Of a stretch of DNA of 64,000 nt, positions 800 to 18,081 are shown piece by piece. The notes under the pieces were generated by a model that was given only the letters and a program-made list of their open reading frames with translations, was not told where the DNA came from and did no database searches. How positions within the stretch are numbered: position 1 is the first letter of the stretch; each line of letters starts with the position of its first letter. The position numbers and the translations under genes were made by a program. This DNA comes from Catalinimonas alkaloidigena. Lineage in GTDB: Bacteria; Bacteroidota; Bacteroidia; Cytophagales; Flexibacteraceae. The stretch lies in contig NZ_FNFO01000004.1 in the NCBI RefSeq assembly GCF_900100765.1, positions 62,001 through 126,000 of the forward strand, in the 5' to 3' direction.

Positions 800-2512
800 T
801 CAGGCCTGGGTCAACGTCGGCGCTTTCCGCTCGTACTTGCGTTTGCGCCAGAAATAGCGCCCCACCCCAAACAGCACCAGCAGCGCCAGCGGTGCCACAA
901 GGTTGAGCAGTTGCCACTGCACCCGTTCCTGCTCGATGCGGGGTGCATCCAGCGGGCGGAGGGCAATCTCTTTGTTGCGCGCCAGCACCACGCCGTCTTC
1001 GTCCAGCATGTATTCCAGCGCGTTCATGATGAAATCGCGGTTCGAAAAGGTCAGGCCCGACACCCGGTCGAAGCCAAGCGGAAATGCGTCGGTCCGGTCG
1101 CGGTTCACTTCGTTGCGGGGCAAATCGCCGTCGGAGACGATCAGCACCTGGGAAGGTTCGTTCTGCTCCCGGAACTCGAACGTCTTGACCGTGACCGGCG
1201 AAAGGCGGTTGGTGTAGAGGGATTGGAAGCGCCCTTCGAGCAGGTACGCGACGGCCTGCGGTCCCGCCTGGAACTGCTCCCGCTGAGGTTGCAACCGGGC
1301 CTCGTTGAAGTTGACCCGCGCGGGCGACGGCCGAATCCGCGAGTACTGCGAGGTGAACATCAGGGGCGTTTTGGTGATGCCGTCGGCCTTGACCGTGTCG
1401 ATGGTACTGACAAAGCGGAGGTACACCGCATCGAGGTTTTTGGTGATGGGGTGGTCGGCAAACTGGTTGGCCAGCGGGAAGAACCACCACGGCATCGGGC
1501 GCATTTGTGGTTGGTCGCCCATGTAGCCGACGAACATCGGGATGTAGGCGGCATTCAGGTCCTGAATCAGGTCGGGGTTGATCCGCACGCCCCACTTGAA
1601 AAACAGGTCGAGCAGGTTGAGTTCCAGCGGAAAGGCCACCGTCCCATCCGGCCCGATGCTATCGAGCTCGATTGCCAGCGGATCGACGAAGAACAATGCC
1701 CGGCCTCCGTTCACCACAAACTGGTCGATCTTGAACTTGTCGGGTTCGCTAAAGGCCGAATCGGGCTTCGCGACGATGATGGCGTCGAACCCCTCCAGGC
1801 TCACCTGCTGGTCGAGGTCCACCTTCTGCACGTCGTAGATGCGCTGGAGGTCCTGCGTCAGGCTGTAGGTCTCGTAATCGTCCAATTCACCATGCTTCCG
1901 GATCAGGCCGATCTTCCGCCGCTGCGTCAGGGTCGCCCGCTGGATGGCCGACGCGAGGCGGTACTCCACCCCTTCCACCGACTGGTTCAGACGGGCTTCC
2001 GGTGACGCGTTCGAGGCGCGCTGGTCGCCCTGCAAAAAAATCACCGGTTCTTCCCGGTCGCCCACGCGGACAATCGCTCCTGGCCAGATCACCTTCTCGC
2101 TCCGTCCTGCCCCTTCGCGGTCCACCAGGTTGGTTGGGATCACGCCCTTCTCCTGCAATTCGCGGTAAAACGCCGCCCGTTCCTTGGCATCGGCAATGGC
2201 ATTGGGGTCCACGAACCGGTACTGCACGTTGTCGCCCGCGTAGACCCGGAACTCGTCCAGCTTCTCCCGAATTGCCTTCTGCAACCGCGCGAAGCCCGCC
2301 GGAAATTCGCCTTCCAGGTAAATGTCCACCAGCACGGGGCGGTCCATTTCCTCCAGCAGCGTCTCGGTTGCCGGGTTCAGCGTGTAGCGTTGGTCTTCCG
2401 TCAGGTCCAGCCGGAAGAACACCTGCGTGCCAATGATGTTCAGCAGCACGATGACGACCAGCGCCACGGCGTACTGCAATCCATCACGGTAGTTTCGAGC
2501 GGTTTTTGGCAT
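800..2512 (-). CDS. gldG: GldG, gliding-motility ABC transporter auxiliary/substrate-binding protein
   Basis: A 570-residue protein with an N-terminal membrane segment (about residues 13-33), a long extracytoplasmic region and a second membrane segment near the C-terminus (LLNLVAPLALLVLFGVGRYFW) followed by a basic tail. The start (MPKTARNYRDGLQYAVALVV), the early DLTEDQRYTLNPATETLL segment and the length fit the GldG family. In Flavobacterium johnsoniae GldA (ATPase), GldF (permease) and GldG form an ABC complex needed for gliding. Here gldF lies upstream on the same strand, but an unrelated HNH nuclease gene (2550-3248) and a 20-base palindrome separate the two. In most relatives gldF and gldG are adjacent. 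Expression may therefore depend on read-through of the palindrome. Confidence 0.92.
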   Translation of the reverse strand: MPKTARNYRDGLQYAVALVVIVLLNIIGTQVFFRLDLTEDQRYTLNPATETLLEEMDRPVLVDIYLEGEFPAGFARLQKAIREKLDEFRVYAGDNVQYRFVDPNAIADAKERAAFYRELQEKGVIPTNLVDREGAGRSEKVIWPGAIVRVGDREEPVIFLQGDQRASNASPEARLNQSVEGVEYRLASAIQRATLTQRRKIGLIRKHGELDDYETYSLTQDLQRIYDVQKVDLDQQVSLEGFDAIIVAKPDSAFSEPDKFKIDQFVVNGGRALFFVDPLAIELDSIGPDGTVAFPLELNLLDLFFKWGVRINPDLIQDLNAAYIPMFVGYMGDQPQMRPMPWWFFPLANQFADHPITKNLDAVYLRFVSTIDTVKADGITKTPLMFTSQYSRIRPSPARVNFNEARLQPQREQFQAGPQAVAYLLEGRFQSLYTNRLSPVTVKTFEFREQNEPSQVLIVSDGDLPRNEVNRDRTDAFPLGFDRVSGLTFSNRDFIMNALEYMLDEDGVVLARNKEIALRPLDAPRIEQERVQWQLLNLVAPLALLVLFGVGRYFWRKRKYERKAPTLTQA

Positions 2513-2529
2513 GTTTCATATTTTGCTAG

Positions 2530-2549
2530 CAACGGAATTAATTCCGTTG
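2530..2549. repeat. Perfect 20-base palindrome between HNH gene and gldG
   Basis: CAACGGAATTAATTCCGTTG is a perfect palindrome that begins on the base after the HNH stop codon (2552-2550) and ends 17 bases before gldG. As RNA it can form an 8-bp stem with a four-base loop. No strong U-run follows, so it is a weak terminator candidate at best. It could equally be a protein-binding site or a mark of the insertion that brought in the nuclease gene. Confidence 0.6.
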
Positions 2550-3248
2550 TTACATAATTCTATCGCTTTTCTGAAGATTGTGCCGAGCGCAAAGCAGTTG
2601 TATATTTTCAGCTTTTAATGAAGTTCCTCCTTTAGAAAAGGGGAGTATATGGTCAAAATGCAAATTATTAGTACTACCACATTGAACACATTTTCCTTTG
2701 TCTCTTTTCCATACTTCCAGCTTCACGGAAGTAGGAATCATCCGATTATGCTCAACATATTTTAATTCCTTTGCTCGCTCTTCTTTTAATTGAATGGTTT
2801 TATCGGTTGTCACTAACTTAAACTTGAATACATTTCTCTTATCAATCTCCTCAATCCATGCATCGACTAGTTGAAAAACTCCACTATAAACCCAAATTCC
2901 GTCTTTAATCTTCTCATACCCCTTTACAAATTCAGTTACAGAATTTCCTTCTTTGAAGTCTTTAGCAGCTCTGTAAAACTTTCCGTTTTGAGTTAACAAA
3001 CCGGAAGGTGTATACATTTCCTGATTTACTTTCTTGGGAGTATCTGCCAAATTACTTGGCACATCATGTCCTTCATAAATGAGCACCTTGCCGTCTTCTT
3101 CCACTCGGTCTGCATAAGGAGCACCTTTGCGCAAAGAAATCAGAATAACACTTGTCTTTCCTCCAACCCGGAAATTCATTCCTCTCTGTAAAGAATGCCC
3201 TTCTGCTGTACACATTTCGAGGTATGAGATAATGTCACCTGGTTGCAT
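2550..3248 (-). CDS. SRA-like/HNH endonuclease, predicted modification-dependent restriction enzyme
   Basis: About 232 residues from the ATG at 3248. A GTG at 3272, overlapping the gldF stop, would add eight. The last 60 residues are a classic HNH nuclease: paired cysteines (CVQCGS), the HFDHILPFSKGG core and LLCARHN. The N-terminal part resembles an SRA/YDG domain, which flips and reads modified cytosine: GKVLIYEGHDVP, then FVKGYEKIKDGIWVYSGVFQLVDAW, which matches the SRA pattern of VRGY followed by YDGLYKV. SRA-HNH proteins are known 5-methylcytosine-dependent (type IV-like) restriction enzymes. The gene is visibly AT-rich beside its GC-rich neighbours and splits gldF from gldG, so it was probably acquired. 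The HNH call is firm; the SRA call rests on motif resemblance. Confidence 0.8.
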   Translation of the reverse strand: MQPGDIISYLEMCTAEGHSLQRGMNFRVGGKTSVILISLRKGAPYADRVEEDGKVLIYEGHDVPSNLADTPKKVNQEMYTPSGLLTQNGKFYRAAKDFKEGNSVTEFVKGYEKIKDGIWVYSGVFQLVDAWIEEIDKRNVFKFKLVTTDKTIQLKEERAKELKYVEHNRMIPTSVKLEVWKRDKGKCVQCGSTNNLHFDHILPFSKGGTSLKAENIQLLCARHNLQKSDRIM

Positions 3249-3265
3249 TGTAATCTCTGAACTAG

Positions 3266-3994
3266 TTACCACTTCCTACTCCCCAGTACGAGGTGCGTGG
3301 AGGACAGCATCACAGCGATGACGCTGACAAAATAGAGCACGTCGCGCGAGTCGATCAGGCCCTTGCTGATGGTGGCGTAGTGGTAGGCGATGCCGAGTTG
3401 GTCGATGAGGCGCGCGGCCTGTCCCCACACGTTGATCGACGCCAGCGCGGCAAATCCTTCGTAAATCACGAAACAGAGAAACACCGCCAGCACGAACGAG
3501 ACGATCTGGTTGTCGGACAGCGATGAGGCAAACAAGCCGATGGCCGTGAACACCGCCCCCAATAACAACAGCCCCAGGTAGGAGCCGATCACCGCCGCCG
3601 AATCGACGTTGCCCTGCGGGTTGCCCAGTTCCCAGACGGTGTAGTAGTACACCAGCGTGGGCAACAGTGCCAGCACGACCAGCACCAGACACGCGAAGTA
3701 TTTCCCCAGGATGATCTGCCAGTCAGTCAGGGGTTTGGTGAGGAGCAGCTCCATCGTGCCGGCCTTTCGTTCCTCCGCAAAGGAGCGCATCGTGACGGCC
3801 GGAATCAGGAACAGGAACACGTACGGGGCCATGGAGAAGAGCGTATCCAGGTCGGCAAAGCCCCACTCCAGGATGCTCGTCTCGGGAATCACCCACGTGA
3901 ACATGCCGATGCCCACCAGAAACACCGCAATCACGATGTAGGCGATCAGCGAATTCAGAAAACTATTGACCTCCTTAGCAAATACCGATAGCAT
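3266..3994 (-). CDS. gldF: GldF, gliding-motility ABC transporter permease
   Basis: A 242-residue ABC-2-type permease with about six hydrophobic segments, beginning MLSVFAKEVNSFLNSLIAYI. The cytoplasmic segment RSFAEERKAGTMELLLTKPL is the conserved coupling region of this family. It should form the membrane channel of the GldAFG transporter required for gliding in Flavobacterium. gldA lies upstream on the same strand, 591 bases away across a relic nuclease gene and two repeats. gldG follows after the inserted HNH gene. The stop codon (3268-3266) overlaps the alternative GTG start of the HNH gene. Confidence 0.92.
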   Translation of the reverse strand: MLSVFAKEVNSFLNSLIAYIVIAVFLVGIGMFTWVIPETSILEWGFADLDTLFSMAPYVFLFLIPAVTMRSFAEERKAGTMELLLTKPLTDWQIILGKYFACLVLVVLALLPTLVYYYTVWELGNPQGNVDSAAVIGSYLGLLLLGAVFTAIGLFASSLSDNQIVSFVLAVFLCFVIYEGFAALASINVWGQAARLIDQLGIAYHYATISKGLIDSRDVLYFVSVIAVMLSSTHLVLGSRKW

Positions 3995-4030
3995 AGCGTC
4001 TCACCAGTCCTATTTTTTTTTTCACATCAT

Positions 4031-4126
4031 TGTCATTTCGACCAACGGGAGCCGGGTGGCCGGTGCCAGATCTTCTGACTTTTGGAACAAGATCTCTCAC
4101 TTTGCTTCGCTCCGTTCGAGATGACA
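4031..4126. repeat. Palindromic interspersed repeat, copy A
   Basis: Outer arms TGTCATTTCGA (4031-4041) and TCGAGATGACA (4116-4126) are inverted copies with one mismatch. Two AGATCT blocks lie inside. Copy B (4470-4556) has the same outer arms. A partial look-alike ending TTCGAGATGACAGG sits near 23961-23974. This resembles the REP-like repeats scattered through many Bacteroidota genomes. The two full copies bracket a GIY-YIG nuclease relic. Confidence 0.75.
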
Positions 4127-4141: not shown

Positions 4142-4440
4142 TTACTCAACTTCATCGTTTAGAAAGCTCCATTCCAGATTTAAACTCGCGATGAGCGTTT
4201 CTTTCTTCTTCCGATTCCCTTTCTTGATCTCTTTCTCTCGCTCCATTGCATCGTATATGGAATCGAAACGCTCCCAATAAATCAGGTGGCAGCAATGATA
4301 CCGTCCGGCAAAAGATTTAGAGTTTCCCCTAGTCTCGAATGCTGCTTCATGCGTGTGGCCAGATCATTTGTTACCCCTGTATAAAGCACTGTCCTTCCCG
4401 GATTTGTCGTGATGTACACAAAATAATTGTGCTCATTCAT
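4142..4440 (-). pseudogene. GIY-YIG nuclease (UPF0213-like), frameshifted
   Basis: From ATG at 4440 the frame reads MNEHNYFVYITTNPGRTVLY then TGVTNDLATRMKQH, a textbook GIY-YIG N-terminus (YVYIT...YTGVTNDL). It then runs to an early stop. The remaining family sequence continues in another frame: ETRGNSKSFAGRYHCCHLIY, WERFDSIYDAMEREKEIKK, and finally EWSFLNDEVE before the stop at 4144-4142. A single-base loss near 4340, where a Phe or Tyr codon is expected after the conserved QH, explains the break. Intact relatives are about 95-100 residues, so the whole gene is present but broken. It is flanked at 15 and 29 bases by the two copies of a palindromic repeat. A sequencing error cannot be excluded. 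Confidence 0.82.
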
Positions 4441-4469: not shown

Positions 4470-4556
4470 TTTGTCATTTCGAGCATTAGCGAGAAATCTA
4501 AACCCACCGATAGAAGATCTCTCCCGTGCCACGGCGACTGTCTTCGAGATGACAAA
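4470..4556. repeat. Palindromic interspersed repeat, copy B
   Basis: Outer arms TTTGTCATTTCGA (4470-4482) and TCGAGATGACAAA (4544-4556) are inverted copies matching at 12 of 13 positions. An internal GAGAAATCT...AGATCTCTC pair lies between them. It shares its arms with copy A (4031-4126). It ends 29 bases short of the gldA stop codon. Confidence 0.75.
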
Positions 4557-4585: not shown

Positions 4586-5515
4586 TTACTCTGCCTGCGG
4601 TTGAGCCGCCGGCGTTTGAGCAGTGAGTTCCCGGAACACCTCTTCCATCGAGTTTTCCTGACGCTGAAGCCCCACCAGCGGCCAGCTTCGTTCGGCGGCC
4701 AGGCGGAACACCGCCCCCCGCAGGTCCTGATTTGCTTCGGTCAGCAGTTCGTAGCGATGGCGGGGCAGCACGCGTACGTCGCGGATGCCGGGGAGTTGCG
4801 CCAGGACCGTCTCGTCGATGGCCTGTTCAAACTCGACCTGGATGGTAGAGCCGCCGCGCAGCGCCTCGACGGGCGAGTCGGCAACCAGCTTGCCGCGGTT
4901 GATGATGACGACGCGGTTGCAGAGCGCCTGCACTTCGGGCAGGATGTGGGTGGAGAAGATGACCGTCTTTTCTTTGCCCACTTCGCGGATCAGGTTCCGG
5001 ATTTCCAGGATCTGGTTGGGGTCGAGGCCCGTCGTGGGCTCGTCGAGAATCAGCACCGACGGATCGTGGATCAGCGCCTGTGCCAACCCCACCCGCTGCC
5101 GGTAGCCCTTCGAAAGCGCGCCGATCTTCTTGTGCTGTTCGCGTCCCAGTCCGGTGAGTTCCACCATGTCGGCGGCCCGTTTCTTCGCGGTTTGGCCGCG
5201 GAGGCCATAAATCCCCGCCACAAAGCGGAGGTACTCGTGCACGTAGAGGTCGAGGTACAGCGGGTTGTGTTCGGGCAGATAGCCGACCTGTCGCCGCACT
5301 TCTGTGGGCTGCGTCTCCACGTTGAAACCGTTCAGCGTCACGAGGCCGCTCGTCGGCGGCAGGTAACAGGTGGCGATTTTCATGGTCGTAGATTTCCCCG
5401 CCCCGTTCGGTCCCAGGAATCCCAGGATATCGCCGGTTTCGACCCGAAACGAAATGTGATCGACAGCGTGCTGGCTGCCGTATGTTTTTACCAGTTGATC
5501 AACGACTACGGACAT
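4586..5515 (-). CDS. gldA: GldA, gliding-motility ABC transporter ATP-binding subunit
   Basis: A 309-residue ABC ATPase starting MSVVVDQLVKTYGSQHAV. The ATG at 5515 was chosen because the frame extension to 5551 lies outside the family start. It has a Walker A (GPNGAGKSTT), an ABC signature (LSKGYRQRVGLAQAL), a Walker B with catalytic Glu (VLILDEPTTGLDP) and a switch His (IFSTHILPEVQ). The roughly 80-residue C-terminal extension fits GldA/ABC-2 ATPases. It powers the GldF/GldG complex encoded downstream. It is divergent from the GH78 gene, with a 135-base shared upstream region. Confidence 0.92.
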   Translation of the reverse strand: MSVVVDQLVKTYGSQHAVDHISFRVETGDILGFLGPNGAGKSTTMKIATCYLPPTSGLVTLNGFNVETQPTEVRRQVGYLPEHNPLYLDLYVHEYLRFVAGIYGLRGQTAKKRAADMVELTGLGREQHKKIGALSKGYRQRVGLAQALIHDPSVLILDEPTTGLDPNQILEIRNLIREVGKEKTVIFSTHILPEVQALCNRVVIINRGKLVADSPVEALRGGSTIQVEFEQAIDETVLAQLPGIRDVRVLPRHRYELLTEANQDLRGAVFRLAAERSWPLVGLQRQENSMEEVFRELTAQTPAAQPQAE

Positions 5516-17031: not shown

Positions 17032-17589
17032 TTATTTAGCGGTTGCCTCAAATGTACACTTGGCGGTAAAAGTAACCGTATAATCCATAGGTTTGTCTAC
17101 AGTTCCATCAAAGACAATATGTAGTACCGGATTGCCTGAATTACTGGGATCTTCCATAAAGTTTGTATGAATATAATCTTTCAACGCCTTATCTTGGACT
17201 ACGACAAACTGATCTAATTGCTCTTGCAGTGTTCCAGCGGAAGGCTTGAAAGAAAGTCGATAGTGCACGTCATTATAGATCGTAATTTCTGTATTGGTAG
17301 GGGTTGCACTCTCACCCGAAAGATTATCCATTACCTCGAACGTAATTTTCTCTATTGTGGCATCTTTGATGTTCTCTTTGTTTGCCTTATACTCTTCGGA
17401 GGCCAGGTCGATAATTTCTTCCACAGAGAACGTCCCGGCATCTTCCGATGAAACTCTGATAGTTTTTACAATCTCAGTAGGTACTTTAATGGTTAGATCG
17501 TCCGTCAGATCCTCACAGGAGAAAGCCGTTAGACTGAACGTTCCGATAAATACCAAAGCGTAGCCAGCTAGTTTCGTAAAATTATTCAT
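17032..17589 (-). CDS. Predicted lipoprotein of unknown function
   Basis: 185 residues from the ATG at 17589. A longer in-frame start at 17661 would put unlikely sequence before the signal peptide. The N-terminus MNNFTKLAGYALVFIGTFSL is followed by a loose lipobox (TAFSC), so the mature protein would begin CEDLTDDLTI and be anchored to a membrane. The rest looks like a beta-rich periplasmic or surface domain (alternating ITFEV, TEITIYNDVHYRLSF and MDYTVTFTAKCTFEAT). I recognise no family. It is monocistronic with its own strong terminator, and its coding sequence is more AT-rich than its neighbours, which hints at acquisition or relaxed composition. Confidence 0.7.
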   Translation of the reverse strand: MNNFTKLAGYALVFIGTFSLTAFSCEDLTDDLTIKVPTEIVKTIRVSSEDAGTFSVEEIIDLASEEYKANKENIKDATIEKITFEVMDNLSGESATPTNTEITIYNDVHYRLSFKPSAGTLQEQLDQFVVVQDKALKDYIHTNFMEDPSNSGNPVLHIVFDGTVDKPMDYTVTFTAKCTFEATAK

Positions 17590-18081
17590 AATGTTTCTTT
17601 GAAATGTTCGGTAAGATATTTCTATCATTATTTTTGTGCAAAATATTATTTCTATAGCCATGTGCCATTTCCGTAATGCAGCATGACTTAGGAGCTATTG
17701 CAGGGGTGGTTTTTAGCAAAAACAACATGAAAGTGCGCAATCGAAAGGCCTCACAGTTAACTTGTCTGTACCTATCTTCAACCCCTTTGTAGCGGTAGAG
17801 CGTTAGGCAACGAAACTTTTACCTTTCCACCTGCCCTTGTACCATCTTAGCCTTTTGTCGTTGAGATCCTTACGCTAGCAAAGCCCCCCGCACAGCGTAA
17901 AACCTTTTGTCGCTTTACACACTATGCGGATCAGTATTCTTTCTGTTACTTCTGACAACGGTCTCGTGTAAATAGCCTATTAGCGCAGGCCGAAGCATGG
18001 TTTCACACGCAACTGGTGCCCCATTCCCCACCGCCAACCACCTTTCCGGAAAATCCAGTGGGATTTCCTTCCAACCATTGC
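17590..18081. other. Divergent intergenic region
   Basis: Roughly 490 bases between the lipoprotein gene (minus) and the ArsR operon operators (plus). The first 100 bases are AT-rich and probably hold the lipoprotein promoter. No gene or RNA was recognised in the rest. Confidence 0.5.

Follow-up and report, generated by a model that had tools for sequence, protein, structure and literature searches.

Introduction

How does a gene for a restriction-type nuclease come to lie between two genes of gliding motility, and what could its product do there? According to PMC5682007, GldG likely forms an ABC transporter together with GldA and GldF, and the position of gldG downstream of gldF is described as highly conserved in Flavobacteriia. 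In Catalinimonas alkaloidigena the two genes are separated by an AT-rich open reading frame (ORF), for which an original prediction, made from the letters alone, had proposed an SRA-HNH nuclease inserted into the operon. We followed up this proposal in a window of 64,000 nucleotides around the locus, addressing in turn the gene and its junction, the origin of the gene, the fold of its product and the genomic settings in which its homologues are found.

Results

The gldA, gldF and gldG genes were named by NCBIfam models, all three with matches above cut-off (Table 1). Both neighbours of the nuclease gene are intact, the models covering residues 1-239 of 242 in GldF, which ends in ...SRKW, and residues 12-560 of 570 in GldG. 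The minus-strand reading frame from 2550 to 3272, from which the analysis started, was confirmed as such; the GTG start at 3272 that would overlap the gldF stop was abandoned. In the alignment, the stretch added by this GTG corresponds to nothing conserved among the homologues, and because the conserved starts of the homologues (M..PGDIISY) align with ATG 3248, translation probably begins at this ATG and the GTG is probably not used. The gap between the gldF stop and the nuclease ATG is 17 nt, and that between the nuclease stop and the gldG ATG is 37 nt.

Table 1. Features of the nuclease gene and its surroundings (positions in the window).
Feature	Position	Strand	Details
gldG, substrate-binding-like partner of gldF	800..2512	-	TIGR03521, E 6.9e-191
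28-nt palindromic repeat copy	2526..2553	.	20-nt perfect core 2530-2549
SRA-HNH nuclease gene	2550..3248	-	232 aa; probable start ATG 3248, alternative GTG 3272
HNH nuclease domain	2553..2738	-	aa 171-232; CxxC 187-190, D199-H200, N215, C220-x-x-H223, N224
SRA-like modified-base-binding domain (predicted)	2799..3248	-	aa 1-150
gldF, ABC permease of gliding motility	3266..3994	-	TIGR03518, E 7.4e-104
gldA, ATPase of same transporter as gldF/gldG	4586..5515	-	TIGR03522, E 1.1e-132

A gldG match was found in 52 relatives, the best 29 loci of which were examined; 28 of these were informative, i.e. had enough upstream sequence. None of the 29 gldG loci has the nuclease gene between gldF and gldG, in agreement with the proposed insertion at this point. 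Among the informative loci, gldF lies directly upstream of gldG in 17 (gaps of -4 to 185 nt) and behind another inserted gene in one (G012), and in the remaining ten it is absent within 1.5 kb upstream of gldG, which other genes precede; within the family, the two genes adjoin in six of the seven loci examined. The assumption that gldF and gldG normally adjoin thus holds for the 17 loci and fails for the ten: the pair adjoins often, not always, and its splitting is tolerated. Because these ten loci, from relatives in the order, lack a nearby upstream gldF, separation of the two genes may be harmless. In G012, another member of the order, the intervening gene is an unrelated ORF of 324 aa (L028, 468-1442 on the gldG-forward strand), which makes at least two invasions of the gldF-gldG junction. 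The operon of the window also carries a second insert, a frameshifted GIY-YIG gene between gldA and gldF (window 4285-4440, with the frameshifted remainder reaching about 4150). Its intact 52-aa part matches PF01541 with 28.2 bits, and it is flanked by TTGTCATTTCGA direct repeats (4030-4044 and 4471-4485) and by inverted arms (4056-4076 and 4512-4532).

The original prediction had also noted a perfect 20-base palindrome at the end of the nuclease gene. The palindrome is perfect and stands directly after the stop codon, and it was rejected as the end of the insert. The 28-nt stretch around it is identical at 24 of 28 positions to GTAGCGACGGAATTAATTCCGTCGCTAC, the core of which recurs four more times in the genome (L066-L069), three of these copies being palindromic over their full 28 letters, and none of ten other nuclease copies is followed within 60 nt by a perfect palindrome of more than 8 nt. 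Since the repeat is found elsewhere in the genome and is absent beside these ten copies, the most plausible reading is a dispersed, REP-like element that is there by chance and is not part of the nuclease gene. The copy at L068 lies beside an IS200-like transposase (Y1_Tnp) gene, and the 28-nt palindrome family with this neighbour is a candidate REP/RAYT system. In RNA folding an 8-bp hairpin is possible just before gldG; it has no T-run and its fold z-score is only -1.70, with 10 of 200 shuffles folding as well, and a role as a terminator was therefore rejected. A regulatory effect of the hairpin is possible.

The composition of the gene sets it apart from its neighbours. Its GC content is 37.8% and its GC3 31.8%, compared with 58-62% and 78-83% for gldF, gldG and gldA; in a window of 59% GC it ranks lowest in GC content among the 38 ORFs that reach 150 aa, so that the AT-richness claimed at the outset is real. 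A host-like composition, which would have spoken against an insertion, was looked for, and the composition is foreign. A second AT-rich ORF at 17032-17661 of the window (GC 38.8%, GC3 38.3%) is probably foreign too.

Of 390 genomes from the order, four encode full-length homologues (G000, G062, G361 and G053, the last with two copies), and four further genomes have a match to the C-terminal part only; in the family, the gene was absent from all ten members searched. At E 1e-30, 14 of 395 genomes in a sample of the phylum match, G000 and G053 among them, and one of these matches (G638) is partial and apparently frameshifted. Beyond the phylum, five loci labelled Latescibacterota, Chloroflexota, Omnitrophota, Nitrospirota and Cyanobacteriota encode homologues with 46-64% identity; four of the five are labelled as MAGs, which makes their taxonomy less sure. 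Because homologues at this level of identity are found in five other phyla, the nuclease gene is, as judged from these comparisons, horizontally acquired. Between G000 and G053, identity is 72% for the nuclease, 62% for GldF and 50% for GldG. In a midpoint-rooted tree, all copies of the order but the second of G053 fall into one supported clade (97/94). This clade stands next to the Omnitrophota copy (88/78), away from the other copies of the host's phylum; the second G053 copy and that of Prochlorococcus sit on long branches and their place is unsure. The frameshifted L083 was left out of A2, and L091 (G774) was added to the tree and the flank comparison only.

The vehicle of transfer was sought among mobile elements. 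Scans of viral contigs gave 0, 3 and 16 matching loci, and matches in 59 phage and 35 plasmid records all cover less than 80% of the query. Only one viral locus covers most of the protein, which gives little support to phage as the vehicle. In this locus (L084:2-520; partial, kept only in A3) a homologue 54% identical over residues 58-231 lies beside an integrase and a capsid gene, and it could be cargo of a prophage or belong to host DNA at its flank. In a bin labelled Lentisphaerae, a fragment at a contig edge (L026:4-117) encodes the C-terminal 38 residues with 95% identity to the window protein, which suggests either that the transfer was very recent or that the contig was misbinned; this row was dropped.

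The C-terminal domain of the protein matches the Pfam HNH family (PF01844) with 32.6 bits, above the cut-off of 21.4, and carries catalytic residues of an HNH/beta-beta-alpha-metal domain, the Asp-His pair and two Asn residues, the second of which stands at the final metal-ligand position, where TagI has His. The match of the N-terminal part to SAD_SRA (25.2 bits) stays below the cut-off of 30.7, though structure prediction gives this part an SRA fold. A Pfam scan of 21 homologues at E 0.01 detected HNH in 20 and SAD_SRA in 11. The AlphaFold2 model, built from a 7-sequence alignment, has a mean pLDDT of 74.8, which is moderate, and is poor in the linker and in parts of HNH. Its top PDB match by Foldseek is TagI (6ghs, E 1.7e-7); over the whole chain this match has TM scores of 0.44/0.37 and an rmsd of 14.5, i.e. 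the domains fit and their arrangement in this model does not. With VIA-align, residues 1 to about 160 gave Z scores of 12.2 to the SRA domain of SUVH5, 11.5 to AspBHI, 11.2 to TagI (spanning 139 residues) and 10.6 to MspJI, and the HNH part gave a Z score of 7.3 to Cap5, in a range that the tool rates as middling. The SRA fold, on which the original prediction had staked itself, is thus present in the predicted structure. Because a family profile search of PDB chains does not list TagI even at E 10, the modelled nuclease is a sequence-divergent branch of the SRA-HNH enzymes, with a likeness to TagI by fold only.

Other assignments of the protein were set aside: PADLOC returned only weak generic REase_II matches on the HNH part, NCBIfam matches to IscB and Cas9d on the C-terminal part were far below cut-off, and PDB matches to fluorescent proteins (E 0.11 or worse) were treated as noise.

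Three residues of the SRA-like domain, Y45, D47 and Y58, are invariant in all 21 aligned copies and are candidate counterparts of the TagI pocket residues Tyr55, Asp58 and Tyr67 given in PMC6212794, with the spacing off by one residue. The HNH core is intact in 20 of the 21 copies; in the exception, G053 copy 2, the residues D199, H200 and N224 are missing. This paralogue (L018:6424-7146) has a host-like GC content and LHFALR in place of LHFDHI, and its sequence marks it as possibly a nuclease-dead SRA protein. For the window protein, the domain identity that had been proposed is borne out by the HNH match and the predicted SRA fold, and its sensing of 5-methylcytosine (5mC) is what we infer.

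Elsewhere in the order the gene is, with one exception, again found tightly packed between other genes. In G361 and G774 only 5/11 and 22/8 nt separate it from a DoxX-like gene on one side and a permease gene on the other (the neighbour names LysM-like, DoxX-like, peptide permease and thioesterase were assigned by eye). The same junction is empty in G770, where the gap is 14 nt, and holds a different ORF in G782 and G305, which suggests that this slot is an exchange hotspot. The ORF that occupies the slot in two close relatives of G361 (L089:833-1441 on the permease-forward strand and L090:817-1431) encodes about 200 aa with, by eye, a signal-peptide-like start. Between G361 and G774 the nuclease has a dN of 0.085 and a dS of 2.08 (NG86), the latter near saturation and above the dS of 1.19 of the neighbouring permease; the low dN relative to dS argues that the protein is kept in that lineage. 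The G062 copy has gaps of 41/71 nt, and G053 copy 2 is flanked at 26/3 nt by a pair of co-directional genes, whereas G053 copy 1 is free-standing, with gaps of 153/124 nt and neighbours on the other strand. Each of the two G053 copies is missing in all 29 congener loci examined for it.

In total, four of the five inferred insertion events in the order placed the gene no more than 71 nt from a co-directional gene on each side, compared with 11 of 88 ORFs across seven regions taken from these genomes, a baseline that includes the nuclease genes themselves (nominal binomial p 0.001, with heuristic ORF calls and a 71-nt threshold picked after seeing the data as the largest G062 gap). The pattern is only suggestive of a recurrent near-bare insertion between co-directional genes in this order. 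Outside the order clade there are 16 copies, 15 of them assessable (L021 has no upstream ORF), and none of the 15 is co-directional with both gaps at most 71 nt, which argues against near-bare operon insertion as a general rule. The copy that comes closest, that of G703, stands 5 nt behind an Mrr restriction gene and 112 nt before the next gene; its linkage to Mrr fits a restriction role. In the 120-nt flanks of 11 copies, the longest shared words are 9 nt upstream and 10 nt downstream and shuffles reach 10 nt, the orthologous pair G361/G774 excepted. The copies thus appear to share neither element ends nor a target, unless the target sites are degenerate.

The distribution of cytosine-C5 methyltransferases (PF00145) bears on the target of the enzyme. 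The genome itself (99.51% complete) has no PF00145 match, with the control positive in 10 of 14. Across 395 genomes of the phylum, PF00145 at E 0.001 is present in two of 14 carriers of the nuclease gene (G509 and G699) versus 177 of 381 non-carriers (Fisher p 0.026, two-sided, in a comparison that ignores phylogeny). That PF00145 is rarer in carriers fits a modified cytosine as the target.

Discussion

Combining composition, distribution, predicted fold and genomic setting, we suggest, with a probability of about 0.8, that the ORF in the gldF-gldG gap is a near-bare, horizontally acquired gene for a compact SRA-HNH modification-dependent (type IV) restriction nuclease. In this model, (i) the nuclease is probably translated from the gld transcript by read-through, (ii) the SRA domain would flip and sense a 5-modified cytosine, 5mC or 5hmC, (iii) the HNH domains, probably paired, would cut nearby, and (iv) incoming modified phage or plasmid DNA would be destroyed, with host DNA spared because the genome lacks a recognisable cytosine-C5 methyltransferase. 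A loose Bacteroidota promoter motif has no match on the minus strand between 2301 and 3400, which is a weak negative.

An alternative is that the gene is a decaying, unexpressed passenger without present function. Its foreign composition and the degeneration of two related copies would be expected of such a passenger, and its intact ORF and motifs and its tight co-directional placement would not; we consider this reading unlikely. The gene could also be a selfish, free-standing HNH mobile gene that, like a homing endonuclease, copies itself into intergenic gaps and uses its SRA domain only as a tether to DNA. Near-bare inserts at differing sites in differing lineages, the two copies in G053, the patchy distribution across phyla and the existence of decayed copies would all follow from this. 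Homing enzymes, however, recognise long sequences, whereas SRA enzymes recognise modified bases, and the candidate SRA pocket residues are invariant. The lack of flank similarity beyond that of shuffles among the 11 copies compared, outside the G361/G774 pair, the conservation of one slot with low dN/dS between two species and the linkage of one homologue to mrr also speak against a selfish gene, which we judge distinctly improbable.

The position inside a housekeeping operon and the low dN/dS in G361/G774 could point to a domesticated SRA-HNH protein in a host job other than defence, e.g. DNA repair or regulation connected to gliding. A host job is hard to reconcile with the absence of the gene from the ten family members searched and of a full-length copy from 386 of the 390 order genomes, with neighbours that vary between most loci and with a codon usage that is still foreign, and we regard domestication as very improbable.

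Read as a restriction nuclease, the gene adds a compact, divergent SRA-HNH branch that is present in Bacteroidota and five other phyla, and it provides a clear case of a defence-type gene that was gained as a single ORF inside an operon and the junction of which is closed in relatives. It thereby becomes possible to test whether solitary type IV nucleases make use of host operons to be expressed at a low level. A broader scenario, in which promoterless restriction genes spread across phyla as bare ORFs and settle preferentially inside housekeeping operons for steady low expression, is a possibility that we hold to be doubtful. What is unusual here is that, within this order, relatives of the gene have landed in operons repeatedly as near-bare ORFs. 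In the literature searched, which was mainly open-access and was queried more broadly than for this pairing, we found no mention of a gld operon that contains an SRA-HNH gene.

SRA-HNH modification-dependent endonucleases are known as a class from TagI, ScoA3IV and TbiR51I, and likeness was assessed against TagI. Judged by the TagI and MspJI details given in PMC6212794, the window protein shares with TagI the order of SRA and then HNH in a single polypeptide, a CxxC zinc half-site and a host without a recognisable Dcm-like methyltransferase, and its Tyr/Asp/Tyr residues are a candidate pocket by analogy. It differs in length (232 aa compared with 285 residues in chain 6ghs), in the second zinc half-site (CxxH instead of CxxD) and in the active site, which is of the HNN type (H200, N215, N224): TagI has Ala228 in the Ala-His pair where the acidic D199 precedes the first His here, an Asn, and His254 where N224 stands. 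The SRA and HNH folds also match those of ScoMcrA (SBD-SRA-HNH), but by length the 232 residues are filled by SRA and HNH and leave no room for an N-terminal sulfur-binding domain. With MspJI and AspBHI the protein shares an SRA-like domain that senses modified cytosine, whereas these enzymes and the Mrr type IV enzymes use a PD-(D/E)XK nuclease domain, as given for MspJI, in place of HNH; Mrr is linked to the family through the one homologue that adjoins mrr. The type of enzyme is thus already known, and the member described here is divergent, compact and found at an uncommon location.
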